A DNA stretch of 64,000 bases from a virus, in IMG/VR virus record IMGVR_UViG_3300035181_000471, positions 157,218 to 221,217 of that record. One strand, 5' to 3'. The position numbers and the translations under genes are program-made. Positions within the stretch are counted from its first letter, which is position 1; the number at the start of each line of letters is the position of its first letter. Positions 10,823-61,312 of this stretch are shown piece by piece. The notes below the pieces were generated by a model, which had not been told where the DNA came from, did no database searches, and saw only the letters and a program-made list of their open reading frames with translations.

Positions 10823-11728
10823 ATGGCTACTCTATCCCGCACCCAAGCACAGACCGCTCAGCTAGGTCAGATCCTAAAGACCGCCGCTGGCCGTCAGAAA
10901 CTTGCCGCCGCTCTCGGACCTTCGCTCCGTAGACGCCGCGACTATATGTCCATCGCTCGTAAGGCCCTCATGGTTGAAACACTACCTGATGGCGCACTAC
11001 CAATCTACGACAAGGAATTCGATGAAACTGGTCGTTCCTTCGTTGAAGCATTCGTAGTAGGTGAGCAGGGTGGCGACATCGTGAAGTTGGCTAACCCCCT
11101 TCGCGTAACCGTCCCCACCTTCGAAATCGCCTCCAACCCAATGATTCCTATCACTCAGATCAAGGAGCGTAGATTCGACATCGTTTCTCGCGCCCTAAAT
11201 CTAGCAAAGGCTGAAATTGGCGCTGCTGAAGATGGTTTCGTGTTCAACCTCTTCGATACGATTGCTACTGCTGCCAACGGCAAGGCTACCAGCGATCCTA
11301 TCTACAATGTGAACTACCCCCTATCTGGTAGCATCACTCCTGATGCTATGGCCGATCTATTCGGACAGGTCCAGAGACATGACAACTCCGTTGCCTATGT
11401 ATTCGTCAATCCCCGCGATTACACTGACTTCCTCAAGTGGCATGACTCCACCCTAGACCGTGAGACCCAGAGACACCTACTCAAGACTGGTATCATGGGC
11501 TACCTCTGGGGCGCAACCGTCCTACAGAGCAGAAAAGTGGGCTACGGCTCAGTTTATGTCCTAGCTGACGCTGAGTTCCTAGGCGTAATTCCTGAGAGAG
11601 TTCCTCTCACAGTGCTTTCTGCTGATCGCCCTGACCTCCGTCAGATCGGTTTCAGCGTCTTCGAAATCGCTGGATTCCTCGTCTTCAACCCCTCTGGCGT
11701 TCAGAAGATGATCGTAACTCGTCCCTAA
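10823..11728 (+). CDS. Major capsid protein
   Basis: A 301-residue protein that forms the icosahedral shell (HK97 fold). Support: the basic N-terminal arm with 'LKTAAGRQKLAAALG' and 'RRRRDYMSIARKAL', followed by 'VETLPDGALPIYDKEF', a pattern I know from major capsid proteins of large myoviruses; then mixed alpha/beta sequence ending 'VFNPSGVQKMIVTRP'. It follows a decoration-like gene, has a GAGGAG box and is closed by a strong terminator. The N-terminal 20-40 residues could be removed by the protease encoded upstream. Confidence 0.82.
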   Translation: MATLSRTQAQTAQLGQILKTAAGRQKLAAALGPSLRRRRDYMSIARKALMVETLPDGALPIYDKEFDETGRSFVEAFVVGEQGGDIVKLANPLRVTVPTFEIASNPMIPITQIKERRFDIVSRALNLAKAEIGAAEDGFVFNLFDTIATAANGKATSDPIYNVNYPLSGSITPDAMADLFGQVQRHDNSVAYVFVNPRDYTDFLKWHDSTLDRETQRHLLKTGIMGYLWGATVLQSRKVGYGSVYVLADAEFLGVIPERVPLTVLSADRPDLRQIGFSVFEIAGFLVFNPSGVQKMIVTRP

Positions 11729-13940: not shown

Positions 13941-16253
13941 ATGACTCGTAATCTTCTAGATGCCCTGATTACGGCAACATCCGAGGTCTCCGTGAAAACT
14001 GGTTATTTACAGCCAGGGGATATGGCCGTTGCCGCTAACGGTAAGGCTTTCGTGGTTACCGCTTCTCGTTCTATGGGTAAAAAGAACACCTACAAAGTCG
14101 CCTTTGAAGACGGCACTGAGGTTCCCCTAGAAGGCGATGGAGTGATGACTTTTGAAGACATGGGCGCAGAGAATTCTCCCATGGAAAAACTTTCAACGCT
14201 GCATAAACTGGCGTTGAATCCTGACTTTGATCTTTATGTAAAAACCTCCATCTCGGACCACAACCTCCCAATTGATGAAGATGTCAATTGGGCTAAGTGG
14301 CTTGAAGCTACCTACAGAATGATGGTGGCTCCAACTAACGATGAAGTGAGAGATGAAGCCATTCACCATATGCTTATCGAAAATCTATTCAGGTACGATG
14401 CCCTGGCTAGGTTCGATGCTTCAAGACTCCCTGCCTCTATTCAAGCCCTGCCAGTTGAGAAGCAAGTGTCTTCTTACCTGAAGGGTTATTTCCTTAAGCA
14501 GAGATCTGACTGCGTTGAGTGGGTCAAAAAGACTTACGCAACGGGTAAAGAAATGCTCGTCATGGACGATGCTGACGGTAGCGAAGCCTTCATTAACAGC
14601 CCTGAATACTCCGAGGCCGATTCTGGTTTTGAGGGCTCCATCTCTAAGATGGACACAGAGAAATTCAGAAAGTCCTTCCTGCACTTCCTAGAGAATGGTG
14701 CTGGGCTAACCCACAAGAAAACAAAAGAGAAGGTTGCACTTCTTCTCAACTTGATCCTAGACACTCCTGCTACCAAGCCTGGAGAGATTATTCAACGACT
14801 CGCTGATCAAGCTGAGGTGTCGCACTCCACAGCTACCAAGCTATTCTTCACTACGCTTCCTCCTCTAATTGAAAAGTTTATGAAGACTCCTGAGGGTGCT
14901 TCATTGAACAGTGAGAAACAACCCTCTGTAGCTAAGCATTCTAATTTGGAGGACTCCTCGATGCGTAAATCCCGTTTTGCAAAAAGTAAGCAAGCTGAAG
15001 CTGATAAATGCCCTCAGTGCGGCCAGAATCTAGTAAATGGAATCTGCCCTACCTGTAAGGACAAGGCTGACAAGGCCGCTAAGGAACAGTCCAAGGCTCT
15101 AAATACCCAGCAACAGCCTGAAAAGACTGGTCCCCAGGTCAAGTCTTACGGCTCCGTAACCGCTGGTAACAAGGCAGCTAGAACTGAAGGAACCCCTTCT
15201 GCATGGTCCGTAGATAACAATAGAGTTCTACCCTCCAAGGACGGTGAACCCGAAGGTCCAAAGATCAAGATCAAGGCTTCTACTGATAAGTATGCCACCT
15301 TCCGTCACCTAGCTGAAGAGGAGGCTCCCGCAATTTCTGAGGCTCTAGTAGAACTTTCTCAGGCTTTCGCTACTCTAGCTGAAGCTTCTGAAGCTCTAGT
15401 AGAGAATCTAGACCTAGCCCCTATTCCCGAAGAGGGCTCTATTAAGGATAAGGTCGCTTCTCGCAAGAAGTTCGCATCCACCCTTAAGAAGCTAGCCGAA
15501 GAAGCACCTGATAAGGTTGAAGAGGCCGTCAAGGAACTTTACAGTTCTCTAGATGAGATCGCTTCGGCTATGGAAAATCTAGCTTCTAACCTAGGTATTG
15601 ATCTAGTCAGTGAAGAATCTGAGTTGGATGAAGAAGTCCATGATGAGCTAGCTGATACCCATGACACTGAAGAAGTTGTTGAAGAAGTTGACAACTCTGA
15701 AGTGCCTGAGGATGTTCAGATTGATGGTGCCGATGCTCCTGCTATCCTGGATGAGTTTGTCGGTGAGAACAAAAAGAGCAAAGAAGCAATTAAGAAGCTT
15801 CACACTGAAAAAGGGAAAGAAATTGAGTACGGTCCTGGTGGAAAGGTAAAATGCCCTTACTGCAATACCTGGAAGAAGGCTCAGGAACCTTGCCCTAACT
15901 GTGGTAATAAAGAAGCCTCTCTACGCGAGAGAATCATGGCCCGTAGAGCCGCCAGAACTAAGACCGCCGCTCAAGTAGTCTGCAATACCGAGTCTGGTGG
16001 CGTGTGGACCAAGTATGAAGCTGGGGATGATGAAGCCATTATGAAGGCTTGTGAGGGTACCAAGTGGTCCCTTTGTGACCCAAGAATGGCCGCTGAGTAT
16101 CTAGCTAAAGGTCCTCTATTCATCTTGTCTGAAGGCCCCGAATCCTTCGCTGTGTATGATCCCACCAGAGACATCATTTACGATGTGGATGATGCCGAGA
16201 CTGACTTCTTTGATGAGGAACTAGCAGAACTAAAAACCTGCCTAGGCCAGTAA
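13941..16253 (+). CDS. Multidomain protein: SH3-like, helical, zinc ribbons, degenerate WCT domain
   Basis: A 770-residue mosaic. Residues 20-75 look like an SH3/KOW-type barrel ('LQPGDMAVAANGKAFVV'). Residues about 110-320 are helical and include a helix-turn-helix-like 'IIQRLADQAEVSHSTATKLF', weakly reminiscent of sigma factors. A zinc ribbon (C357, C360, C369, C372) and a second one ('CPYCNTWKKAQEPCPNCG', around residue 640) flank a long Ala/Glu-rich helical region. The end ('TKWSLCDPRMAAEYLAKGPL', W709, C712) resembles the WCT domain of three other genes here. A strong internal ribosome site and ATG at 14961 could give a separate 430-residue product. Function unknown. Confidence 0.72.
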   Translation: MTRNLLDALITATSEVSVKTGYLQPGDMAVAANGKAFVVTASRSMGKKNTYKVAFEDGTEVPLEGDGVMTFEDMGAENSPMEKLSTLHKLALNPDFDLYVKTSISDHNLPIDEDVNWAKWLEATYRMMVAPTNDEVRDEAIHHMLIENLFRYDALARFDASRLPASIQALPVEKQVSSYLKGYFLKQRSDCVEWVKKTYATGKEMLVMDDADGSEAFINSPEYSEADSGFEGSISKMDTEKFRKSFLHFLENGAGLTHKKTKEKVALLLNLILDTPATKPGEIIQRLADQAEVSHSTATKLFFTTLPPLIEKFMKTPEGASLNSEKQPSVAKHSNLEDSSMRKSRFAKSKQAEADKCPQCGQNLVNGICPTCKDKADKAAKEQSKALNTQQQPEKTGPQVKSYGSVTAGNKAARTEGTPSAWSVDNNRVLPSKDGEPEGPKIKIKASTDKYATFRHLAEEEAPAISEALVELSQAFATLAEASEALVENLDLAPIPEEGSIKDKVASRKKFASTLKKLAEEAPDKVEEAVKELYSSLDEIASAMENLASNLGIDLVSEESELDEEVHDELADTHDTEEVVEEVDNSEVPEDVQIDGADAPAILDEFVGENKKSKEAIKKLHTEKGKEIEYGPGGKVKCPYCNTWKKAQEPCPNCGNKEASLRERIMARRAARTKTAAQVVCNTESGGVWTKYEAGDDEAIMKACEGTKWSLCDPRMAAEYLAKGPLFILSEGPESFAVYDPTRDIIYDVDDAETDFFDEELAELKTCLGQ
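14948..14963 (+). promoter_or_regulatory. Internal ribosome site and start codon
   Basis: GGAGGA followed after 7 bases by an in-frame ATG (codon 341 of the gene at 13941). Spacing is ideal. It lies exactly at a domain border, just before the first zinc ribbon, so it may direct an independent C-terminal protein. Confidence 0.5.
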
Positions 16254-49718: not shown

Positions 49719-49755
49719 ATAGCTAATTTGAGAGTCTATATTGAAGGCGTCATCC

Positions 49756-51816
49756 ATGAAGCAAGCATTCATTAGCGAGAAATATGGGACTCTCACACTG
49801 AGCGTCCTCAGGGATGCCAATCCCCGTATGCAGATTACCGTGGACCTAGGTCTACCTACCTTTCCACAGTTCTCGCTAACTTTACCATTCCCTGAGACAG
49901 AAGCTCTAAACTCCAACTATATCTTCAGTTGTGGAGTAGCTCTTCTCGTTGAACAAATGCATATCTTCTTGAATGAGAGGGGATTCGTTGAGACCGTCAT
50001 TGTGGGTCTCATGGAAAGCCTTTATCTAGCCTTAGAGCAATACAAAGTGGAAAACAAGGAAGCCTTTGAGGAGGGAGATCCTTGTGAGGTTCATGAAGTT
50101 AAATTCGGCGTGTCCGTTGACTTCTATAGGGAAGTCCAGGAACACCTAGTATCCAATAAACAAGCCGCTCCTTATGTGAACCATGCCAAAGAGTTTGAGC
50201 TTCGTCTGAAGAAAAGACAGATGGATAAGTCCCAGGAGACAAAGGCCAAAGAAGAAGCTGGGGAGATCATTAGCCGCTTCAAGAACAATATCTATAAGAA
50301 CACACCCGGTCAGCTATTCGTGACCCTCTATGACCGTAATGGGAAGCCTGCTGGTGTTGCTAGAGTGACTAATCAAGGCTTGACCAAGTTTGCTGAGGAG
50401 AAGGAAGCCGCTACCTGGAAAAACTTCGTCCGTGGTGAATACTGGCTTAACTCCGACAATGGTCACTACATGGACTGCCAGACTGGTGACTACAACCACG
50501 AGTCCTATGCACAAGAGACAATTATTTGTGGTCGCTGGGATGATATCAAGCAAGCCTTAGAGGAGAACTATCTCAGATTAAAATCCATGAACCCGGATTT
50601 AGTGGCTAGGGAAACTGGAGTGGAGATCGAAGAGTTAGCAGAGGAGTGGAGGGAAATAGCTTCCGTTAATGACCCCCTAACTAATGCAGTCGCTTGGGAT
50701 TTCCAATACACTTCCTTATGGACCTCACTACCAGAGCAAGAACAGAACGAGCTATTCAATAACGATTACGAGCTTTACAGGAGAGATATTCGTTACTTCT
50801 TCATGAAGCATTATAATGAGATCAGAGTTATCAACAATAACTTCGAAGTATGGAAACTCACATCTCAGAACATGAATGCTATCACCTCTTTCATCCTAGA
50901 GATGGCTGGGGATCGCCTAGATAACTCAGCCGAGTTAATGATCGAAGAAGTTTCAACTAAGCGTTGGGCTTCCGTCCCATTGGGCGAGTTTCTCAACATG
51001 AAACATCCTGGACAAATGTGGAGAGCGCATGGAACTGTGTTGGCTGGTAAGGTCGCCTTCGCTGAGTTCAGAGCTAAAGAGCTAGAGGTTGGAGATTATT
51101 ACACCTCTCCTGAGAACCAAGCGGATACCATGAAGGTCTTAACCAAGGACATGAAGAACGGCTTTGTGTTTCTTGAGGTCGAAATGGCCGATGGAGAGCA
51201 GAAGAGTATTCGTTACGATGCCAATAAGATCCTTTATCTAGGCCGTAGCTTCGCAAAGACAGGACTATTTAACCCCGAAACTTTCACCTTCTCTAGAACC
51301 CAATTCTCCAACAAGCCCCTACCACGAGGGATGTATAAGTTCAAGATGGATGAGGAAAAGAAGACCATCTATCAAGAGTCTATCCAACTCCCTCCCCCAG
51401 AGCCAGAACACCGCGCCAGCAAGACTGCCGCTGAAAATGTATACATGGTTGACGAGGGTGATGGCACTCCTCAGTTCTTAAACATTGAGCTAGAGAGTCG
51501 TTTCGGAAACTGGCATCTTCGTGTTAAGGATAGTGCTGAAGCTGAATGGATCATCGCTGACATTGAGCTAGACTCTATTGATCGTCCAATGACGGCCAAG
51601 GGTAAGAACTCATGGGACCTTGAAAGGGATCTAAAGAGCAAGATTGATTGGCATTATATCATGCTAAAGAAAGACCTGAAGAGAGAGATTGAGTCAGGCC
51701 ACAAACCAAAGTATACATACCATGATCTAGAGCTTGATAATGCAAGACTTATACAGGAAATGATCTATGAGGTGGAACGACATCTCGGACCTGAACAACC
51801 AAAAACGAGGTGGTAA
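49756..51816 (+). CDS. Unknown 686-residue protein
   Basis: I start at ATG 49756, which has AAGG eight bases upstream; a TTG at 49741 is the alternative. Mixed alpha/beta protein. Residues about 450-505 look like a small SH3-like barrel ('LEVGDYYTSPENQADTMKVL'), comparable to the N-terminus of the 770-residue protein at 13941. A 'RASKTAAENVYM' KTA motif precedes the C-terminal domain. No catalytic motif recognised. The TAA overlaps the ATG of the following WCT gene, so the two are translationally coupled and may work together. Confidence 0.7.
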   Translation: MKQAFISEKYGTLTLSVLRDANPRMQITVDLGLPTFPQFSLTLPFPETEALNSNYIFSCGVALLVEQMHIFLNERGFVETVIVGLMESLYLALEQYKVENKEAFEEGDPCEVHEVKFGVSVDFYREVQEHLVSNKQAAPYVNHAKEFELRLKKRQMDKSQETKAKEEAGEIISRFKNNIYKNTPGQLFVTLYDRNGKPAGVARVTNQGLTKFAEEKEAATWKNFVRGEYWLNSDNGHYMDCQTGDYNHESYAQETIICGRWDDIKQALEENYLRLKSMNPDLVARETGVEIEELAEEWREIASVNDPLTNAVAWDFQYTSLWTSLPEQEQNELFNNDYELYRRDIRYFFMKHYNEIRVINNNFEVWKLTSQNMNAITSFILEMAGDRLDNSAELMIEEVSTKRWASVPLGEFLNMKHPGQMWRAHGTVLAGKVAFAEFRAKELEVGDYYTSPENQADTMKVLTKDMKNGFVFLEVEMADGEQKSIRYDANKILYLGRSFAKTGLFNPETFTFSRTQFSNKPLPRGMYKFKMDEEKKTIYQESIQLPPPEPEHRASKTAAENVYMVDEGDGTPQFLNIELESRFGNWHLRVKDSAEAEWIIADIELDSIDRPMTAKGKNSWDLERDLKSKIDWHYIMLKKDLKREIESGHKPKYTYHDLELDNARLIQEMIYEVERHLGPEQPKTRW

Positions 51817-53423
51817 TGTTTCGCTTTAAAAATTTCTTTCTAACTGCGGCGGCTTCTCAGGCTAAGAAGGATGCGCTTGTAAAAAAATATAAACTTGACC
51901 CGCAAGTCGTGGATAAGTTGGCCGACATTGACCCAACTCCGAATGGCGAATTCACGGACTGGTTATGCCGTGAAGCGTCCAGAACTCATCTCCCAGGCTT
52001 ACGCCAGTTAAGCGAGATCAATACATATCTACAAGAGTATATCAAGCTCAAGCGTAATCCTGAATGGAAGGGCGAGAAGAATGTCCTAAACCTGTCTTAT
52101 GATGCCTTCAAGACTTTGATAGAGGCAGCATCTCGTGAGGACTACTCTAAGAAACAAAAGGTTAGAGACATTGAAGAGAATGCCAAGAAGTATATCAGAG
52201 ATGGCGTCAACTACCTAGGCAAAGTCGAGGGAGCTTACTGCTATCAAATATTGACTCCTGAAGCATCACAAGTCATGTCAGCAGGAACTCATTGGTGTAC
52301 TCAAAGTGAGAGCTATAGTAAGAGCTACTTATCGGACGGCAGACTCTATGTCTTCACTAAATCTGGAAGTCAGAATTCTTATGGTAACGACAAATACGCT
52401 CAGATTTATGTATCAGAAAACAGGATCGAGGGGGAACTGGCTAGTGGCAATGACATAACCTCAAACAATACCTGGGGTTTAGTGTTCAATGACGAAACCT
52501 TAAAATTTATGGAGTTTTTAGGCCAATTCGATGGTCTAGTAAAGAAGGGTCTAGAAGAAGGTAAAATCCGTGTAAAATCGGGAGCCGCCAGAGAGTGCCA
52601 CGAGTGCGGTGGGGAAATTGATGAAGATGACGACGATATTAGAACAGATGATGATGGTAACTACTATCACACAGACTGCTACTATGATCGTTATTCATCT
52701 TGTGAAAATTGCGGGAATGAGATTGACAGAGAGAACGACTACTACGCATATACCGATGACGGCTTTTTTTGCTCTGACTGTTCTAGGCATTGCCCTCATT
52801 GTGATGAAAGCTATAGAACTGCTGGTAGAGGAGCCACCGATTTTTACGATGTTAACTTAGAAGGAAGGGAGCTAGCCGTGTGCGAAAGCTGCTTCATGCA
52901 TGACTTCTACAGTTGTGCTAGCTGTGGTGAGGGCTTTGAGCAGGGTACCAATATGGAGTTCAATGGTGATGAAGTTTGCCCTAGTTGCTTTGCCAAAGAG
53001 TGGGATGAAGACACTGGTAGCATCATAGACGCTTGGGTAGAGTCTGAAGGTCTAGGTGACACCATTAAGGCAGAAGTTATAGCTTATGCTGAGAAACGCT
53101 TCCAGGAGATAAAATTAGCTGTAGTTTACCCATACTATGAGAAGATGAAGAAGGAAGGCTATCTCTACGACTGGAACGATGTAGACCTAGCAACAGCACT
53201 AGAGTTTGTCCCCCCAGGCCAAGAGCAGGCATTAGAGGCTCTTCGTAAGATGGTGAAGGCACCCTTGGACTACATTCTAGAGAAGCTTCCAGAAGCCATA
53301 AGAGAGGACGCTCACCCCAATGAAAAGTGGGACGCCAGCGAGATTGTCTCCTGGCTTGAAGACAACGGAATCATCGAAGACGATCAGTATCAAAATAACC
53401 TAGTAGAACTCCTGGTTGACTAA
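51816..53423 (+). CDS. WCT-family protein with LIM-like zinc fingers
   Basis: A 535-residue member of a family with three clear copies in this window. I use ATG 51816 (overlapping the previous stop, AGG box upstream) rather than GTG 51810. Residues 10-100: shared helical domain with 'KKYKLDPQVVDKLADIDPTP' and 'GEFTDWL'. Residues 155-185: 'GTHWCTQSESYSKSYL' (W160, C161, T162), the family motif. Residues 261-391: cysteine pairs C261/C264, H285/C288, C296/C299, C319/C322, then C326/C329, C356/C359, C367/C370, C388/C391, a LIM-domain-like double-finger layout rare in viruses. C-terminal 120 residues are helical and acidic. Function unknown. Confidence 0.78.
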   Translation: MFRFKNFFLTAAASQAKKDALVKKYKLDPQVVDKLADIDPTPNGEFTDWLCREASRTHLPGLRQLSEINTYLQEYIKLKRNPEWKGEKNVLNLSYDAFKTLIEAASREDYSKKQKVRDIEENAKKYIRDGVNYLGKVEGAYCYQILTPEASQVMSAGTHWCTQSESYSKSYLSDGRLYVFTKSGSQNSYGNDKYAQIYVSENRIEGELASGNDITSNNTWGLVFNDETLKFMEFLGQFDGLVKKGLEEGKIRVKSGAARECHECGGEIDEDDDDIRTDDDGNYYHTDCYYDRYSSCENCGNEIDRENDYYAYTDDGFFCSDCSRHCPHCDESYRTAGRGATDFYDVNLEGRELAVCESCFMHDFYSCASCGEGFEQGTNMEFNGDEVCPSCFAKEWDEDTGSIIDAWVESEGLGDTIKAEVIAYAEKRFQEIKLAVVYPYYEKMKKEGYLYDWNDVDLATALEFVPPGQEQALEALRKMVKAPLDYILEKLPEAIREDAHPNEKWDASEIVSWLEDNGIIEDDQYQNNLVELLVD

Positions 53424-53785
53424 TGAGTGTCTTATCCCCCATCCTTCGCTTAGCCCAGGACAACACGCTTTTGTTCTGGTGCCCCGGCTGTAACGAATGC
53501 CACGGAGTAAAGGTTGGAGATGGCCCCGGCCCTAGGTGGGCTTGGAACACTGACCCTACTAAACCCACTTTCACCCCCTCTATTTTAGTAAGATCAGGAC
53601 ATTATATGCCAGATCATAAAGGAGAATGCTGGTGTGACTATAATAAACTATATCCTGAGGACTTAGGTGGTTATAAATGCTCTGTATGTCATTCATTTAT
53701 ACAAGAAGGTAGTATAATTTTCTTGGATGACTGCACTCATACACTAAGAGGTCAGACAGTCCCTCTACCAGAATGGACAAACTGA
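53423..53785 (+). CDS. DUF6527-like zinc-binding protein
   Basis: A 120-residue protein matching the pattern I know for DUF6527: 'LFWCPGCNECHGVKVG', 'WAWNTDPTKPTFTPSILV', 'CSVCHSFIQEGSIIFLDDCT' and 'LRGQTVPLPEW'. The Cys/His pairs suggest a zinc site. The family is found in phages and prophages and has no known function. Its ATG overlaps the stop of the WCT gene (TAATG) and its own stop overlaps the next ATG (TGATG). Confidence 0.8.
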   Translation: MSVLSPILRLAQDNTLLFWCPGCNECHGVKVGDGPGPRWAWNTDPTKPTFTPSILVRSGHYMPDHKGECWCDYNKLYPEDLGGYKCSVCHSFIQEGSIIFLDDCTHTLRGQTVPLPEWTN

Positions 53786-53934
53786 TGAAAGGCTACAGAT
53801 TAGACGGCTACACACCAATGACCCAGGAAGAGATTGACGCTTGGGATGACAGAGAAGAACGCCTAAAACTGGGTAGATTCCCGCAAAGTCAGTATAGTAA
53901 AGAGGGTGAGAATAGCCACCACTATGAAGAATAA
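53785..53934 (+). CDS. Small acidic protein, coupled
   Basis: A 49-residue open frame whose ATG overlaps the preceding TGA (TGATG). Product is highly charged ('MTQEEIDAWDDREERLKLG', ends 'SHHYEE'). The tight coupling is the support; no function is evident. Confidence 0.6.
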   Translation: MKGYRLDGYTPMTQEEIDAWDDREERLKLGRFPQSQYSKEGENSHHYEE

Positions 53935-53988
53935 CAACGATTGATCAGGAATCTTATTCCCGTATCTATGATAGATAGAGGACTCTAA

Positions 53989-56784
53989 ATGAAACTTAGT
54001 GCATTGACTCTCTTAGCCGCCATTTCTGATGGGAAGAAGCGTATTCTAATGGACCGCTATGGTGCCACAGAAGAACAGCTAACCATTGTAGATGCCGCAG
54101 ACCCAACATCCTCCGGCACATATGCTGAGTGGATTACTCGTTCCTGGCTTAACCAGCACCTAATCAACCTTCCTGAAGACACCGCTATTGTCCGTGCTGA
54201 CCTAGGTAAGTTCAATCGTGTTAAGAATAAGGCTGAGTGGGGACAGAACTCCAAGGATGTAATGACTTACAATCCCGAGAGACTTCGTGCCGCCCTACTC
54301 ACCGTAACTGAGCCAAAGGCTGAAGGCATCCCTGATGTCTCCGCTGAAGTCCTCATTGATGACGGAACTTACATTATGTGGAAGGTCACCACCGTAGCTG
54401 ACGCTATGGCGCTATCCGCTAAGTCCGGTTGGTGTACAAAAGGCGAGAATATGGCTTCTCATTACCTAAAGGAAGCTCCTTTATACACCGCATTCAAGAA
54501 CGGTGAGCCTCTCTTCCAGTATCACTCTGGCGGAACCACCGGACACCCCCAGTTCATGAACCGCTTCAACTCCACCATGCAGTCTGCAAAGATCATGAAT
54601 GCTGAAGCTTACGACCTCATCTCAAGAGTTCCAAACCCAGATCCCGACCTTGTTACCGTTCTAGAAAAGTTCAAGGCTCCTAACCTATCTGAAGCTGAAA
54701 CCTTCTCCTACCTCAAGGATGTCCTCGCCACCAATCCAGAGTTCGCTAAGGGAAACAAAGAGTTTCAGGAACTAGAAAGAAGGTTCCTTGAGCAGAGATA
54801 CAAGATCTTCGATGAAGAAGAGCTAGTGGCCCTCATCGACAAGTATGGGCGCACTGGAGAAGTCGTATCCAAGTTCCTTGAGGACAACCCAAGAGTCCGT
54901 GGTATCATCAAGAAAATTGAAGACACCCCCGACTGGGCCGCTCTCTGTAAGGCTATGGAGAACAATGAAACCTTTGACGAGAACGAAAAGAAGATCATCT
55001 TTAAGATCCCTGGCCTATTCTCCAAGGTATTCGCCAAGTTCTCAGCCGCTAATAATTTTGATGCTGAAGTTGCTACACTAAAGTCTCTGATCAAAGAAGG
55101 TAAGGACACAGAAGCCTACGAGCTAGCCAACAAGCTAGTCAAGCTCCTAGGAAGTGGATTCCAAGAGCAGAGATACCGTTACTACAATGACCCTCAGGGA
55201 ACCATACCTTGCATTAAGAACTCTGCTGGCTATGCCGCCGTTCAGAAATACAAAGACATCATCATCAACATGGTTCGTCCTTTGATGGCCTCCACTCTAA
55301 CCAACATCGCCAATAAGGGTCTCGGTCTAACCGAACTAGCCAAGGAACTAAATGAAGCCATCGACAAGATCCAATCTGCCGCTAACAACGACAACAAAGT
55401 AATTGAGTGGTGCAACAAGCGTAGAAAGGAAATCCTAGTCCCTGCGGCTAAGGCTTCCGTAGCTGAGGCTGTTGCTAGTGCCTCTACTTTAACCGATCTA
55501 GCACAGGTCATGGGAACTGTTGAGCGCAATCTAGATCAAGCTCATATCAACTGGCAGGAAAAAAACGAAATCAAGGAAGAGATCAAAACCAATTCCATCA
55601 TCCCTAGGATCAAGGAAGAGTTTGATGCTATCACCAACTCCTCTGCTGGGAAGTCCTTCGAAGAGCTAGCCAAGGAATTCAAGGACAAGTATAACGAAGT
55701 CATCGGTGTATTCAGATACGACAGCACTATCGAAGGTGTCCTTGCCTCTATCGGTAAGGAAATGCTAACTGCTGGCCTAACCACCGATCTTGCCACTGTT
55801 CCTAAGTTGAAAGCCGTCACTGACAGACTCGACGCTCTAGACCTAGAGACCTTCCACTGGGCCGAGCGTATTGCTGAGAACCGCAAGGCTGAGATTCGTG
55901 CTGAGCGAGATGCCAAGGCACAGGCTCGTGGTGAGGCTCGTGGAACTGGTGATACCACAGTAAGAACTCGCTACGCTCCAAAGAAGGAGCTAGAGACTTA
56001 CTACAATCTAATGAGAGCATGGCAACACAACCCTGACACGGTAGCTCGTGGCGAGAAGCCTAAGCTCTCTGACAGGGGAGAAACATTCCTAATTACATCT
56101 CCTACTATCAATCTTAGTGACGCAATCACCTACTTCAAGGAGCAGGGTAAGACCTCTCCAGAATTAGAAGCCAAGATTCTAGCTTCCAATAATCTCAGTG
56201 CTGGTATTTCCTACTTGAGAGAGGTAAAGAAGGAAGCATGGCCTGAGCTAGCCGAGAAAATTCTTGATTATGGTTTTGATTCCGAATACGCCAAGGCTTA
56301 CAAGGAAGTAGTCTTCAAGGACAAGGAATGGCCTGAACAGAAAGCCAAGGCTGTTGCGGCGTTCACCAATGATTCCGTAGCTCAGAACCACTACCTCATC
56401 AATGAGATGAAACAGTATAATGATAAGAACAACGAGGGAGCCAAGTGGGGCCTTCTAGAGAAGAAAGCCTTAGACTTCCTATCCTCTGGTCAGTTCGACA
56501 GCATCAGACACGCTTGGTGGGTGAATGATCGCTTCTTTGAACCTCTCCTCGCCTATGTCAAGTCTACCAAGAGCCGTCTAGATAAGAAGCTAGAAGAGAA
56601 GGTCTGTGAGAAGAATGAAGACTTCGCCACCAAGTATCTCTTCACTCTAATCCCCAAGGATAAGATCTCTGAGATCATCGAAAAGTATTCCGCCGCAACT
56701 GAGGCATCAGAAAAAGCCAAGACTTCTTCGCACCACTTTAACCTCTTCGCCGCACTAATGAAGGAATTGGAGAACTACCTATGA
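53989..56784 (+). CDS. WCT-family protein, long form
   Basis: A 931-residue paralogue of the WCT proteins at 51816 and 59437. Residues 10-110 match the shared N-terminal domain ('KKRILMDRYGATEEQL', 'DPTSSGTYAEWITRSW', 'FNRVKNKAEW'). The motif is 'SGWCTKGENMASHYLKEAPL' (W148, C149, T150), followed by 'GEPLFQYHSGGTTGHPQFMN'. The remaining 700 residues are almost entirely helical and charged, without zinc fingers. Strongly CTA/GCC-biased codons suggest high expression. The last codons overlap the next gene (ATGA). Function unknown; a structural or packaged protein is plausible. Confidence 0.75.
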   Translation: MKLSALTLLAAISDGKKRILMDRYGATEEQLTIVDAADPTSSGTYAEWITRSWLNQHLINLPEDTAIVRADLGKFNRVKNKAEWGQNSKDVMTYNPERLRAALLTVTEPKAEGIPDVSAEVLIDDGTYIMWKVTTVADAMALSAKSGWCTKGENMASHYLKEAPLYTAFKNGEPLFQYHSGGTTGHPQFMNRFNSTMQSAKIMNAEAYDLISRVPNPDPDLVTVLEKFKAPNLSEAETFSYLKDVLATNPEFAKGNKEFQELERRFLEQRYKIFDEEELVALIDKYGRTGEVVSKFLEDNPRVRGIIKKIEDTPDWAALCKAMENNETFDENEKKIIFKIPGLFSKVFAKFSAANNFDAEVATLKSLIKEGKDTEAYELANKLVKLLGSGFQEQRYRYYNDPQGTIPCIKNSAGYAAVQKYKDIIINMVRPLMASTLTNIANKGLGLTELAKELNEAIDKIQSAANNDNKVIEWCNKRRKEILVPAAKASVAEAVASASTLTDLAQVMGTVERNLDQAHINWQEKNEIKEEIKTNSIIPRIKEEFDAITNSSAGKSFEELAKEFKDKYNEVIGVFRYDSTIEGVLASIGKEMLTAGLTTDLATVPKLKAVTDRLDALDLETFHWAERIAENRKAEIRAERDAKAQARGEARGTGDTTVRTRYAPKKELETYYNLMRAWQHNPDTVARGEKPKLSDRGETFLITSPTINLSDAITYFKEQGKTSPELEAKILASNNLSAGISYLREVKKEAWPELAEKILDYGFDSEYAKAYKEVVFKDKEWPEQKAKAVAAFTNDSVAQNHYLINEMKQYNDKNNEGAKWGLLEKKALDFLSSGQFDSIRHAWWVNDRFFEPLLAYVKSTKSRLDKKLEEKVCEKNEDFATKYLFTLIPKDKISEIIEKYSAATEASEKAKTSSHHFNLFAALMKELENYL

Positions 56785-57350
56785 GTCTAACGGACAGCGT
56801 TACCCCAATTAGAAAGGGTCACATTAGGATCTTTGAAGAGGGTAATCCTTCCAACATCCTATATGAGAACGACAATGCTATCTGCAACGGAGCCTCTTGG
56901 CTCTTCGCTAGAATGTTCGCCAACATCAATGAGCCTCAGAATGGGGTATGGGGTCTAGCTGTAGGCGCTGGTGATTCTACATGGCCTGCTAACAACCAGC
57001 CAGATGCCATGCCTACCCAGACTGCCATTATCACCCCAATCGCCCGTAAGCCCCTGTCTAGCGCCAAGATGGTCGATGCCAATTTCAATCAGGTAGAGCA
57101 TTCCACCTTAGTTGAGTTCCAGACCGTTCTAAACGCAACTACAGATAACCTCCTGATTCCCATCAGAGAGATGGGTCTAATCGGTGGCGGGACCGCTGGC
57201 ACGGATATGATGAACCAGATCAACACCCCCTTCTTTGATCCAACCAACCCAAACAACAATAGCGCCGTTCTAATCAACTACAAGACCCTCCCTCCCCTTC
57301 TCCTACCTTCCGGTATTAACTTTGTGTTCTCTTGGACCCTCGCATTTTGA
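56781..57350 (+). CDS. Probable virion/tail-fibre-associated protein
   Basis: A 189-residue beta-rich protein with 'GHIRIFEEGNPSNILYENDN' and 'NGVWGLAVGAGDSTWPANNQ', a style typical of small phage structural proteins. Its ATG overlaps the stop of the WCT gene (ATGA). The downstream homing endonuclease gene starts 44 bases after it; the endonuclease promoter-like sequence begins at this gene's final codons. Role inferred from composition and context only. Confidence 0.62.
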   Translation: MSLTDSVTPIRKGHIRIFEEGNPSNILYENDNAICNGASWLFARMFANINEPQNGVWGLAVGAGDSTWPANNQPDAMPTQTAIITPIARKPLSSAKMVDANFNQVEHSTLVEFQTVLNATTDNLLIPIREMGLIGGGTAGTDMMNQINTPFFDPTNPNNNSAVLINYKTLPPLLLPSGINFVFSWTLAF

Positions 57351-57383
57351 CCAAAAATACAAACTTTCAGTATTGTTGTATAC
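57347..57383 (+). promoter_or_regulatory. Candidate promoter of the second homing endonuclease
   Basis: TTGACC (57347-57352), 18 bases, TATTGT (57371-57376) fits a weak sigma-70 promoter; within it ACTTTCAG (57363-57370) and GTATAC (57378-57383) repeat the pair seen at 17736. Confidence 0.45.
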
Positions 57384-57393
57384 TGGAGTGTTT

Positions 57394-58500
57394 GTGCCAA
57401 GAACAAAAGAAGCTCAGAAGTTATATCTAGAAGCTAAGAGAAATGAAACCCCGCCTGAGGGTCAGCTATGTGAAAATGGCTGTAACTCATTGGCGGGGTT
57501 TCACCTTATGCGTAGCATCAAAACAGAAACCGGGACAATTATTAGGTGGTTCTGGTGTTGTTCCAACCACTACAGAAAATGTCCTGCCAAACTCAAAAAG
57601 GCTGAAGAAGCCCGAACCGCCACTTCGCTAGCTAAGTATGGTGTAGCTCATCATATGCAGCTAGCCGAGACTATTGAAAAACGAGATAAGACATCTGTTA
57701 AACTCTTCGGAGTTTCTCATGCCATGAAGCTACCTGAAGTAATAGAACGAAAGCATCAAACCGAAATAAAGAATAATGGAGACCTGGGTCAAAGTTACAG
57801 GACTAGATCGGCGGCTCTCATGGACACTCACGGAGTGGAGAACATCTCCCAGGTTCCTGGTGTAGCAGAGAAGATACAAGAGTCTATCCTACAGAGGTTT
57901 GGGGGTTACTTCTCCTCTAACGAAGAGTGGAAGCGCCAGTATAAGGAGGTCACTGGTTATGAACACCCCAGGCAAAGACCGGAGGTTGAAGCGCAAAGAG
58001 CCTTGACTTGTATTCAAAGATATGGGGTTAAATACCCTCTTCAAATAGGGGTATTTAGACAGAAAGCCAGGGCTACATTCTTAAGGAAATACGGCGCTCC
58101 CCATCCAATGCAGTCACCAGCTTTCTATTTTGCTAAGCTGAGAAACGGGTATAAATGGAAGCCCTTTACTTATCCAAGCGGACGAGTCATAAACACTCAA
58201 GGATATGAATCTTTGATCATTCAAGAGCTTCTAGATTCAGGAGTCCAAGAAGAAGACATCTATGTTGGGTTAGAATGCCCCAACTTCGAATACTCATTTG
58301 AAGGCAAAGAGCGTAGATATTACCCTGATATCTATGTAAAGAGTCAGAATTTAATCATTGAGGTTAAGTCTACTTACACCTATCAAAGAAATTACGAGCT
58401 AAATCAAGCTAAGAAAGCTAGCATAAAATCTGCTGGTTATGAGTTTCAATTTAGAGTTAAGCACCCTAACCGTCTGCAAGAAACTACTTTAATCAACTAA
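57394..58500 (+). CDS. Homing endonuclease, PD-(D/E)XK/Vsr-like, with DNA-binding repeats
   Basis: I start at GTG 57394, five bases after GGAG; the frame is open further upstream (ATG 57322) but that would overlap the preceding gene. Product 368 residues. The N-terminal part has Cys pairs ('CENGCNSLAGF', 'WFWCCSNHYRKCP') and at least four repeats of the type 'KYGVAHHMQLAETIEK' / 'LFGVSHAMKLPEVIER' / 'RYGVKYPLQIGVFRQK', known as DNA-reading repeats of phage endonucleases (DUF7487-like as I recall). The C-terminal nuclease core shows 'YYPDIYVKSQNLIIEVKSTY' (D ... E-x-K). It is inserted with its own promoter after a structural gene, the mark of a selfish element. Confidence 0.8.
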   Translation: MPRTKEAQKLYLEAKRNETPPEGQLCENGCNSLAGFHLMRSIKTETGTIIRWFWCCSNHYRKCPAKLKKAEEARTATSLAKYGVAHHMQLAETIEKRDKTSVKLFGVSHAMKLPEVIERKHQTEIKNNGDLGQSYRTRSAALMDTHGVENISQVPGVAEKIQESILQRFGGYFSSNEEWKRQYKEVTGYEHPRQRPEVEAQRALTCIQRYGVKYPLQIGVFRQKARATFLRKYGAPHPMQSPAFYFAKLRNGYKWKPFTYPSGRVINTQGYESLIIQELLDSGVQEEDIYVGLECPNFEYSFEGKERRYYPDIYVKSQNLIIEVKSTYTYQRNYELNQAKKASIKSAGYEFQFRVKHPNRLQETTLIN

Positions 58501-58503
58501 TAG

Positions 58504-58516
58504 ACTCTCAGTATAG
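58504..58516 (+). promoter_or_regulatory. Promoter-like CTCAGTATAG element
   Basis: ACTCTCAG directly joined to GTATAG, then AAGGGAG ribosome site of the tiny gene at 58530. Related to CAGTATAAT elements at 61704 and 62130. Confidence 0.35.
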
Positions 58517-58529
58517 AAGGGAGACCAGC

Positions 58530-58634
58530 ATGGCTCTAGACGGAAAGAACAGCAAGAAGATCATCAAGAAGAAAGTTACCAAGCGCAAGAAGACCTCGCC
58601 TAGAGGTAAAAAGGTTAAGAAGCACGAGAGATAA
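58530..58634 (+). CDS. Tiny, extremely basic peptide
   Basis: A 34-residue open frame with AAGGGAG upstream, own promoter-like element, and a strong terminator 18 bases after its stop, so it looks like a monocistronic unit. More than half of the residues are Lys/Arg ('KKIIKKKVTKRKKTSPRGKK'). It could bind nucleic acid or act on a host complex; function unknown. Confidence 0.62.
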   Translation: MALDGKNSKKIIKKKVTKRKKTSPRGKKVKKHER

Positions 58635-58651
58635 TCAGGCATCTCCGTAAG

Positions 58652-58695
58652 AAATCCCCTCCAGTCCGAGTATTATATGGGTGGAGGGGATTTTT
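58652..58695 (+). terminator. Rho-independent terminator
   Basis: Stem AAATCCCCTCCA / TGGAGGGGATTT of 12 bp, loop of 18 bases, followed by TT; the run of T is five long in total. The 170 bases that follow up to the next gene hold no open frame or RNA gene that I can support. Confidence 0.9.
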
Positions 58696-58866
58696 CTATC
58701 GTTGAGGGCGGGATCGAGTCCTGGTAAGTGACCCCCGCGCCCCCAGCCGCCTCAACCCTAGCTACAAAATTAAGTGGCGTCAGCCACCGCGAAAATTTAG
58801 AGTGATTTACATCACACCGTATTCTATCCCCCAAGAGCAGTTCATCAAGACAGGAGTGCCAGACCC

Positions 58867-59091
58867 ATGCCGATGGTAGAGTTCTCATGCAAGTGTGGTC
58901 ATAACTGGATAGAGGAGGTGCAGGTAGCCCCTGTAATGTCCCTTCAATTCCTGGTTGCCAACCCATGCATTGAATGTGGCAATATGCCTTATCGCGCCGA
59001 GAGAAGACCATCCAGGGACTTCTACAAGGATAGGGACGCCATGAATGCGAAAGACATAGCGATAGCGAAAAGCCTGGGAATTAAGTTATAG
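58867..59091 (+). CDS. Small zinc-ribbon protein
   Basis: A 74-residue protein with 'CKCGHNWIEE' and 'PCIECGNMPYRAERRP': two Cys pairs about 25 residues apart, a typical zinc ribbon. The C-terminus is charged and helical. Ribosome site GGAG is 11 bases upstream of the chosen ATG; the ATG two codons later is an alternative. Function unknown. Confidence 0.68.
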   Translation: MPMVEFSCKCGHNWIEEVQVAPVMSLQFLVANPCIECGNMPYRAERRPSRDFYKDRDAMNAKDIAIAKSLGIKL

Positions 59092-59114
59092 CCATCTCTT
59101 TATAGGGAGGCTAT

Positions 59115-59444
59115 ATGGAAGAAGGCTTGACAATGCGACACCTTACCGGGGACAAGTACGAAGTGTCTCTAGGAGGATGTAAAGCCATAATCGAATTTCA
59201 TCATGGCTATGTAGAGGTCAAGGTAATCACCTCTGAAAATAAGCGTAAGGGCGAAGCCCGACAGCTACTCCTTAAATTGAAGGACCGCTACGGTCATGTC
59301 GAAACGGAATCATGCATAGACTCAAGCATAGCCGCCGAGGGAGCCCAAGGAGCGGAACCCTTTTGGCAAGCCATGTTGAATGAAGGCGTGGTAAGATTAG
59401 TAGGAACGATGGAAGGCAGAACACTACGGAGCAAACATGAGTAG
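59115..59444 (+). CDS. Small GNAT-like protein (tentative)
   Basis: A 109-residue protein with strong GGGAGG box. 'YVEVKVITSENKRKGEARQL' resembles the acetyl-CoA pyrophosphate loop (R/K-x-x-G-x-A/G) of GNAT acetyltransferases, and 'EPFWQAMLNEGVVRL' the C-terminal helix-strand of that fold. The protein is shorter than a full GNAT domain (about 140 residues), so this is a weak call. It overlaps the start of the next WCT gene by eight bases. Confidence 0.5.
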   Translation: MEEGLTMRHLTGDKYEVSLGGCKAIIEFHHGYVEVKVITSENKRKGEARQLLLKLKDRYGHVETESCIDSSIAAEGAQGAEPFWQAMLNEGVVRLVGTMEGRTLRSKHE

Positions 59445-60558
59445 TAACAATCTAAACTGGTCTGACTTAATCAAGTTAGCTCATGGCTTCGACATCGAAG
59501 CAGCGGCATCAGAGGCGAAGAAGAACGCTTTGGCAAAGAAGTATGACATGCCTCTTGAGGATGTTAATGCTTGCTCTGAAATTGACCCAACACCTAATGG
59601 TGAATATACCGAATGGCTATGTAAGGAACTGAAGCGTGATGAGTTGGGGTTTGATCGTATCCCAGCCCATGACATCACAACGCATCTAGTCATATTCAGC
59701 AGGCTAAAGAACTCCCCAGAATTCAGGAATGCTTGCGCTAAGCACATCTATTCAATGGATATCAACAAGTATGACTTGTCCGAGTTTCTGGTGAAGATGA
59801 AAGAAGCAGAGAGCTTAGTGAGTAAAAATCAGAGGATAAAAAATGTCCTGACCAAAAGCCTACTATGGTCCGGTGAGTTTGAAGGGCATAAGATCGAGGT
59901 ATTCAAATTTGAGTCCAATGAGGAAGCTTACGCTCTTATCTCTGGTGGCCCTAGCCTGAGTCGTCATTTTAACCCCTCTCCACAAACTTCCTGGTGTACC
60001 ACCCAAGAAGATACCGCCAGGGACTACCTAGAGGAAGGTGACGCCTACATCATCCGTGTGGACGGCAAGAACTATTGCAACCTCCATGAAGGTTCCTCAC
60101 AATGTATGGATAGTGCAAACCGCTCTTTCGCTACTAACCGCGTGATCAAAGACCCCATCGTAGAATTCGCCATAGAGGAGGCCAAGATCCATCTGGAATA
60201 CTTCAAGACCAGCAATGGCAATGTGCCAGAATGCTCTGAATGTCATGAAGCCCTTGGAGGTAAAGTTTATCTCGATACCAGGGAGGCATACGGGGAGGAA
60301 AAATTCCTATGCCAGAGATGCTTTGAGACCCTTTGGGTTAAAGACATTCAAGCATTCATCAGGGATCTCCCATCAGAGTACTTCGTTGAGCCTAAGACTT
60401 ACGAAAACGAGTATAAATGGATTCAGGCTCTATGGGAGCTAGACGGCAAGGAGCCAGGGGGACGCAATTTTTGGAATCCTGAGGATGTCAAGCAAGCACT
60501 AGAGCAGATGGGTGTGTATAGCGAAGCCATTTACACCGGACCAATAACCACAGAGTAG
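59437..60558 (+). CDS. WCT-family protein, short form
   Basis: A 373-residue paralogue. Shared N-terminal domain: 'EAKKNALAKKYDMPLEDVNA', 'IDPTPNGEYTEWLCKEL', nearly the same as the protein at 51816. Family motif 'QTSWCTTQEDTARDYLEEGD' (W186, C187, T188), then 'YCNLHEGSSQCMDSANRSF', where the H...Q..D residues may complete a site. A single zinc-finger-like pair follows ('CSECHEAL...CQRCFETL'), a reduced version of the LIM-like region. It faces the - strand gene at 60572, with only 13 bases between the stops. Confidence 0.75.
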   Translation: MSSNNLNWSDLIKLAHGFDIEAAASEAKKNALAKKYDMPLEDVNACSEIDPTPNGEYTEWLCKELKRDELGFDRIPAHDITTHLVIFSRLKNSPEFRNACAKHIYSMDINKYDLSEFLVKMKEAESLVSKNQRIKNVLTKSLLWSGEFEGHKIEVFKFESNEEAYALISGGPSLSRHFNPSPQTSWCTTQEDTARDYLEEGDAYIIRVDGKNYCNLHEGSSQCMDSANRSFATNRVIKDPIVEFAIEEAKIHLEYFKTSNGNVPECSECHEALGGKVYLDTREAYGEEKFLCQRCFETLWVKDIQAFIRDLPSEYFVEPKTYENEYKWIQALWELDGKEPGGRNFWNPEDVKQALEQMGVYSEAIYTGPITTE

Positions 60559-60571
60559 GTCCAACGATTTT

Positions 60572-61312
60572 CTACTTGATCTCTATAGCACCGACTGGTT
60601 TGTTCGTGGCGCATGATTGCATTAGCTGGCTTATGTAGCTAGCTCTCGTTTGCCCTGCCTGCTTCCACTTCAAGATTTTCGTGACTGGGGTATTGGCATA
60701 ATGAGCTAGATTAGGAAACTGATCCAATATGTCGTAAGCCACAGGTGCAGGCATGTCGTGGATCATTTCTTTGTCAGTCATGTCAGGATAACGGTCAATG
60801 TAGTCATTGATCCAATCCACGGACTCTGGTTTCAAGTAAGAGTATTCCCCAGACTGTAGCATATCGCTTAGGTGGTCTTCATCAATTTCGATATTGGCGG
60901 TCAGGTTGCGGCCATCCACAACAGCAACGAATAGAGCGGGTGGAATTTGATCTTTTTGACTATCGAAGACCAGATCTTCTTGACTATCGAAGACCAGATC
61001 TAGTGGAGCGGCTCTGTCTCCAGCGTAGCCTAGAGCCATAGCTAGATTAATGGTGAGGTAGACGGCCTCTTGAGGTTGCAAGGAAGCTCCCCATCTCTCC
61101 CCACGCTTAGGATCAATCGTGAGCCCTTCAGCTAGGATCTTCCTGGCTAGGTCATCATGGCAGTTCGCAATGCCGTGGTAATAGGTTTCCGCCTTATGGA
61201 TGTCCATTGGTGGGGGAGTGGCTCTGCGGTTTAATCTGGCCTTCATGGTTAGGAGCTTGGACATAGTGTGCCTCATATAAGGGAGGGGAAGTTCATGACC
61301 TTTAAAATGCAT
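60572..61312 (-). CDS. ADP-ribosyltransferase-like protein
   Basis: A 246-residue protein on the - strand. The pattern 'AETYYHGIANCHDDLARKIL' + 'AEGLTIDPKRG' + 'PQEAVYLTINLAMALGYAGD' + 'ALFVAVVDGRNL' matches the H-(Y/G), S/T-strand and downstream elements of ADP-ribosyltransferase/KptA-like folds; phages use such enzymes on host RNA polymerase, ribosome or defence proteins. The exact catalytic Glu is not identified. A Met at residue 17 (61264) with AGG upstream may be the true start. An in-frame 24-bp duplication lies in the middle. Its start codon overlaps a 20-bp direct repeat. Lone - strand position suggests an acquired accessory gene. Confidence 0.55.
   Translation of the reverse strand: MHFKGHELPLPYMRHTMSKLLTMKARLNRRATPPPMDIHKAETYYHGIANCHDDLARKILAEGLTIDPKRGERWGASLQPQEAVYLTINLAMALGYAGDRAAPLDLVFDSQEDLVFDSQKDQIPPALFVAVVDGRNLTANIEIDEDHLSDMLQSGEYSYLKPESVDWINDYIDRYPDMTDKEMIHDMPAPVAYDILDQFPNLAHYANTPVTKILKWKQAGQTRASYISQLMQSCATNKPVGAIEIK
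60949..60996 (-). repeat. 24-bp in-frame tandem duplication
   Basis: GATCTTYTTGACTATCGAAG... occurs at 60949-60972 and 60973-60996 with one mismatch, giving 'VFDSQED' and 'VFDSQKD' back to back in the ADP-ribosyltransferase-like protein. Confidence 0.92.

Follow-up and report, generated by a model that had tools for sequence, protein, structure and literature searches.

A described domain that appears to be related to the proteins considered here is the PcfJ-like domain (PF14284), which is carried by PcfJ of pCF10 and by many phage proteins. Hundreds of phage records contain PcfJ-like proteins (a single PcfJ query matched 371 of them), and so does a conjugative plasmid. A further comparison is with the polyvalent proteins of phages and conjugative elements. 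These are multidomain proteins, those of phages typically being encoded near late virion genes, and they are thought to enter the host along with the DNA; the paper describing them (PMC5512222) does not mention PcfJ in its text. The existing record of the family described below is, as judged from profile matches, the pair PHROG_17056 and PHROG_28193, both annotated as of unknown function, which match 45 and 39, respectively, of the 59 family members collected (PA5oct gp279 included).

The window analysed here is a stretch of 64,000 nucleotides, bases 157218-221217 of a 221-kb virus contig (G000). It is a virion module, encoding a tail sheath, a head protease, the major head protein, a tail fibre and baseplate-like proteins, together with three proteins that share a W-C-T motif (WCT proteins 1, 2 and 3, Table 1). 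WCT proteins resemble polyvalent proteins in being multidomain; those of the window phage, PA5oct and record L053 are encoded among virion genes, a location that is not general elsewhere. Unlike polyvalent proteins, most WCT proteins have one recognised domain followed by an unassigned tail, and their entry into the host is only putative. Gp279 of Pseudomonas phage PA5oct (Wroclawvirus) is, like the window copies, a WCT protein (482 residues, single copy, adjoining TerL), but it has a different tail, only about 25% identity to them and a place on another branch of the tree.

Table 1. Locations of WCT genes and associated features (window coordinates unless a record is named)
Feature	Location	Strand	Length	Details
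Gene upstream of WCT protein 1	49741..51816	+	691 aa	
WCT protein 1	51816..53423	+	535 aa	W160-C161-T162
WCT protein 2	53989..56784	+	931 aa	W148-C149-T150
WCT protein 3	59437..60558	+	373 aa	W186-C187-T188
Probable divergent WCT core	C-terminal ~70 residues of protein at 13941..16253	+	770 aa (whole protein)	W709-SLC
Major head protein	10823-11725	+		
Homing-endonuclease-like gene	57322-58500	+		phrog_3339, E=8e-16
Protein downstream of WCT protein 3	60572-61312	-	246 aa	
One-domain WCT protein	G000:150897-152456	+		outside window; profile search
Three-domain WCT protein	G000:26040-21355	-	1562 aa	outside window, in L022; profile search
Two WCT domains, then S-adenosylmethionine decarboxylase domain	L003:5527-9237 (phage G003)		1236 aa	PF02675, E=3e-13
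Four PcfJ genes in a row	L102:2-9840 (viral contig)			
'RWPEAE'-type tandem repeats	L002:11177-12786			

WCT proteins of the window and their relatives

Each of the three window proteins has a helical N-terminus followed by the WCT core, and they differ in what comes after it: WCT protein 1 has a Cys-rich tail with seven CxxC motifs, WCT protein 2 a tail of ~670 residues without CxxC and WCT protein 3 a short tail in which CxxC occurs twice. When the N-terminal ~185-290 residues were compared pairwise by blastp, W-C-T was aligned among all three, with E=5e-23 for proteins 1 and 3, E=3e-11 for proteins 1 and 2, and E=6e-9 for proteins 2 and 3. By these alignments the N-terminal homology is beyond doubt and the three are true paralogues, as the original prediction had proposed, together with the divergence after the motif. 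Its suggestion of LIM-like fingers in the tails did not hold up, since LIM and the other Pfam zinc-finger families searched for in the window WCT tails all fell below cut-off, with LIM (PF00412) scoring 14 and 12.8 bits (E=0.06-0.14) against a curated cut-off of 22.9 bits. A degenerate fourth copy had also been proposed at the C-terminus of the 770-residue protein, which contains 'TKWSLC', and this is likely. Pairwise BLAST of that C-terminus against the three WCT proteins gave no match (E 0.4-3); a profile of 11 relatives matched it with E=4e-5 (domain 1e-4), as did the WCT protein of L036 (phmmer E 2e-4, blastp E 7e-4). It is probably a short divergent WCT copy without the N-terminal helical part, and is rated as probable rather than certain because a later, broader WCT profile gives only E=0.056.

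Four further WCT domains outside the window were found in G000 by a profile of the three window proteins, and in total the seven WCT domains of the genome are spread over five clear WCT proteins. One of these proteins has three domains and ends in an MYM/FCS-type zinc finger (PF06467, E=1e-6). In L039, which is largely collinear with G000 at 11-28 kb, the syntenic counterpart of this protein shows one WCT domain, and therefore the domain number changes between close relatives. Related proteins contain one, two or three WCT domains, and the domain mostly begins near the N-terminus of the protein and is followed by a tail of 1-783 residues. Phage G003 contains an orthologue of WCT protein 2 with 1078 residues. 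In a quick tree, in which many inner forks were unresolved, the copies of the window phage's group group together in a single set of 14 rows (support 99) that divides into two clusters, the first comprising WCT proteins 1 and 3, the repeat proteins and L039, and the second WCT protein 2, the one-domain protein outside the window and L036. Different phages have repeatedly copied the WCT module and attached different tails to it. The original prediction took four copies in one window to suggest a system, which is not supported: the copies are accessory genes that lie scattered, each phage having from one to about eight.

The tails themselves provide several side observations. Tandem WCT domains and S-adenosylmethionine decarboxylase are joined in a single G003 protein, an unusual fusion. 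Repeats of the type 'RWPEAE-x2-I-A-x-D-P-x-x-A-Y-x-Y-A' follow the WCT cores in the tails of L065, L058, L071, L053 and L036; 'RWPEAE'-type repeats are also present in tandem in L002 and in unrelated phage proteins neighbouring WCT. The WCT tails of SCTP-2 and L233 contain DUF4116-like repeats.

No match was obtained among isolated phages by tblastn with WCT proteins 1 and 3. When divergent copies were used as stepping stones, however, tblastn reached Pseudomonas phages PA5oct, MIJ3 and Paride, Caulobacter phage CcrBL9 and Salicola phage SCTP-2, and relatives are also present in dozens of metagenomic phages. A DNA pattern derived from the G-x-x-T-K-W-C-T-A-like motif matched 42 stretches of viral contigs, all 42 of which contain a WCT domain by profile search, whereas only one of its 16 matches in 257 Gb of cellular genomes is a real member (on a Saccharibacteria MAG contig). 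On the strength of these searches the WCT family is large and nearly virus-restricted. Its members have a helical part at the N-terminus and a core of about 100 residues. The number of matches per record is nine in G011 (two of these being parts of one frame), seven in SCTP-2, six in G008 and one each in PA5oct and CcrBL9, with none in Bacillus phage G, Atu_ph07 and Tunturi_5. WCT proteins make up a sizeable group of paralogues within the unknowns of jumbo-phage genomes.

Among 59 diverse WCT proteins only W and C are invariant, while D108, G170, T188 and Y197 (numbering of WCT protein 3) are each conserved in at least 90%. The original prediction is borne out in its invariant W and C, in the conservation of the motif among homologues on which it had been staked, and in its mention of similar motifs in unannotated phage proteins. 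The conserved H and Q that it placed downstream are not general in the family, where the wider pattern at that position is F/M-x-D-x-x-D/N. It had further described the family as undescribed, which is correct only in part. The family is already recorded as PHROG_17056 and PHROG_28193, with the annotation given above, but the window copies are too divergent to be recognized directly: none of the three gave a match to either PHROG at E<=1, and they connect to them only via intermediate relatives. No Pfam family covering the WCT domain was found, and PDB sequence searches returned nothing credible. Weak matches to DUF4291, Cellulose_synt, SNAPC3 and SbcC were taken as chance or coiled coil.

Predicted fold of the WCT core and its relation to PcfJ

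An AlphaFold2 model of WCT protein 3 was built from 46 sequences (mean pLDDT 73, with values of about 85-97 for the greater part of residues 11-170 and 191-230). It comprises helices through residue 141, strands 142-148 and 151-158 and a helix at 161-168; a low-confidence loop (172-181) lies just ahead of W186, and W186-C187 is followed by a helix (191-200) and strands 203-208, 211-217 and 222-224. The core (~100 residues) is hence predicted to run from a long helix through two strands and a helix to W-C, and from there to a helix and three strands. When the model was compared with predicted viral structures using Foldseek, members of the family came first (CcrBL9 E=1e-6, PA5oct E=8e-6). These were followed by Marseillevirus-labelled proteins and others, and then by PcfJ-named proteins at ranks 7, 8, 11, 12, 16 and 19 (E from 3e-3 to 0.2, with low TM-scores); rank 9 was Brochothrix phage A9 gp163, which is itself matched by PcfJ tblastn. 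The Marseillevirus-labelled matches, BFVD entries A0A481YZT2 and A0A481YW50 (LCMAC202/LCMAC201; E 6e-5 and 8e-5), one of which is named glutamate-tRNA ligase, could be true eukaryotic-virus members or mis-binned contigs.

The WCT core and the PcfJ domain also align by profile. A comparison of the core with 88 PcfJ sequences from viral contigs using hhalign covered 59 columns and placed Cys on Cys, with P=5e-5 and a score of 32.5, compared with 15 for a reversed PcfJ control and a score of at most 22.4 for 197 of 200 column shuffles. The three other PcfJ shuffles scored about 130 and were set aside as end artefacts (7-11 columns at the profile end). The PcfJ HMM reached at least 3 bits in nine of 46 WCT domains, versus none of 46 reversed and nine of 460 shuffled domains, and no Pfam family other than PcfJ (3/46) was touched by more than a single WCT member. 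One member, in G008, carries the intermediate motif T-K-W-C-V, and at that position it matches PF14284 below threshold. A PcfJ domain, when folded separately (pLDDT 94.8), runs long helix, b, b, a, (HC), a, b, b, b, a, as does the model of the WCT core. The two are alike in fold order, in the aligned Cys and in the aromatic residue and Gly that follow it, as well as in some downstream positions. However, the PcfJ motif E-G-x2-L-x-H-C-V, with Y, R, T and Q downstream, is not found in WCT. The H-C-V-G/A of PcfJ corresponds to W-C-T/V, with H replaced by W, the E-G, R and Q-x-R-G-x-x-N of PcfJ are absent, and the PcfJ domain is C-terminal in its proteins while the WCT core is near the N-terminus.

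By these comparisons WCT and PcfJ are probably distant relatives. The alternative is that the likeness is convergent, a separate small fold in WCT having come to place a Cys between two helices ahead of a three-stranded sheet. It is in keeping with this alternative that no WCT member passes the Pfam PcfJ cut-off of 25 bits (the best reaches about 14 bits, E 0.006-0.008), that WCT has not retained the E-G and H that are invariant in PcfJ and that the Foldseek TM-scores are low. We nonetheless consider convergence unlikely, since the profile-profile alignment, the control-checked sequence scores and the fold order all agree on the same residues. As WCT falls below the Pfam cut-off it is not filed as a PcfJ member. 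What is new in this analysis is the predicted tie between the WCT core and the C-terminal PcfJ domain, drawn from profile-profile comparison, Foldseek and fold order. It would join PcfJ to the WCT proteins of many jumbo phages, thereby providing more comparative material, and singles out the shared Cys for mutation. The succession of four PcfJ genes in L102 implies that tandem expansion has occurred in PcfJ too.

Genomic context and possible role

In the window phage the stop codon of the 691-residue upstream gene overlaps the start codon of WCT protein 1 (TAATG), and a homologue of that gene also adjoins a WCT gene in phage G003; the gene for WCT protein 3 overlaps the preceding gene. The nearest isolated relative is Tunturiibacter phage Tunturi_5, whose major head protein is 69% identical to that of the window and whose virion genes have a similar order. 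Tunturi_5 infects an acidobacterium, and an acidobacterial host is possible for the window phage. A search of Tunturi_5 revealed no recognisable WCT protein. Because its virion module is otherwise similar, the WCT proteins are regarded as accessory, and a role as an essential virion part is not supported.

A first alternative for the role of WCT proteins is that they are ordinary parts of the head, neck or tail, with the module serving as an assembly scaffold. The window is a virion module, PA5oct gp279 is flanked by TerL and a virion protein and has an ESI-MS/MS note in its record, the TerL-WCT order is kept in L053, and the WCT genes of L036, G000 and G003 lie near a conserved virion-region gene, all of which would suit such parts. 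The UvsX recombinase of PA5oct carries the same note, however, and therefore the tag may include non-virion proteins. Moreover, WCT genes in other phages have mixed neighbours (87 were considered), among which methyltransferases and endonucleases outnumber virion genes, and the statement that all WCT genes sit among virion genes was rejected on these grounds. Together with a copy number of 0 to 9, the lack of WCT in Tunturi_5 and the location of the three-domain gene (G000:21-26 kb) far from the virion module, this makes ordinary virion parts an improbable explanation.

A second alternative is that the WCT core is an enzyme, either a compact GNAT-derived acyl-transferase or a Cys-dependent one, that modifies host or phage proteins, with the tails choosing the substrate. 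The Cys is invariant in both WCT and PcfJ, and GNAT acetyltransferases make up nearly all of the best matches of the PcfJ model among solved structures (best E=0.03, probability 0.99). The Q-x-R-G-x-x-N of PcfJ would, by its inferred placement, come after the last strand and ahead of the next helix, the position at which GNATs bind acetyl-CoA. However, the likeness of the predicted PcfJ domain is weak and extends to one half of a GNAT acetyltransferase; the other half of the GNAT fold is missing, and the acetyl-CoA motif R/Q-x-x-G-x-G/A is absent from both consensus sequences. The WCT model has no significant PDB match by fold search (best E=1.3, with several GNATs among the matches), and no His or Asp partner for the Cys is conserved across the WCT family. 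Half-GNAT ancestry is thus plausible whereas catalysis is unsupported, and we regard the enzyme reading as quite doubtful. It would be bolder still to unite WCT and PcfJ as one superfamily derived from half a GNAT, a general effector chassis of mobile elements whose core seizes or modifies one conserved host target and whose exchangeable tails redirect it, the copies having expanded to about eight in jumbo phages, and this we consider very unlikely.

Tentatively, and at less than even chances, we propose that the WCT proteins are duplicated accessory host-interaction factors with a core that binds a common target and variable tails, made late in the window phage and perhaps carried in the virion. 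They are considered accessory and variable because there are from 0 to 9 matches per phage, with none in Tunturi_5, and because domain number and tails differ. The core, with a half-GNAT-like fold and without the GNAT cofactor motif, would be a binding module that places the protein on the common target, W-C and the following helix being either the contact itself or its buried support, and the tails (Cys-rich fingers, long tails or tandem repeats) would give each paralogue its own partner. The copies among the virion genes of the window are probably made late, and virions may carry them to the next host, which the mass-spectrometry tag of PA5oct gp279 would suggest. Repeated duplication with changing tails would fit an arms race with hosts or rival elements. 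However, an invariant W and C under arms-race pressure could equally mark catalysis, and the neighbours of WCT genes elsewhere, which are not mainly virion genes, count against this proposal. The PA5oct-like Pseudomonas phages, which have one copy and a cultured host, are a tractable system for WCT function.

Two other genes of the window are located close to the WCT genes. A homing-endonuclease-like gene lies between those of WCT proteins 2 and 3. The 246-residue protein encoded on the opposite strand gave no match to PHROG at E<=0.01, and begins with a 'YYHGI...L-x-E-G-L...YLT' pattern, which we take to recall ADP-ribosyltransferase-like folds.
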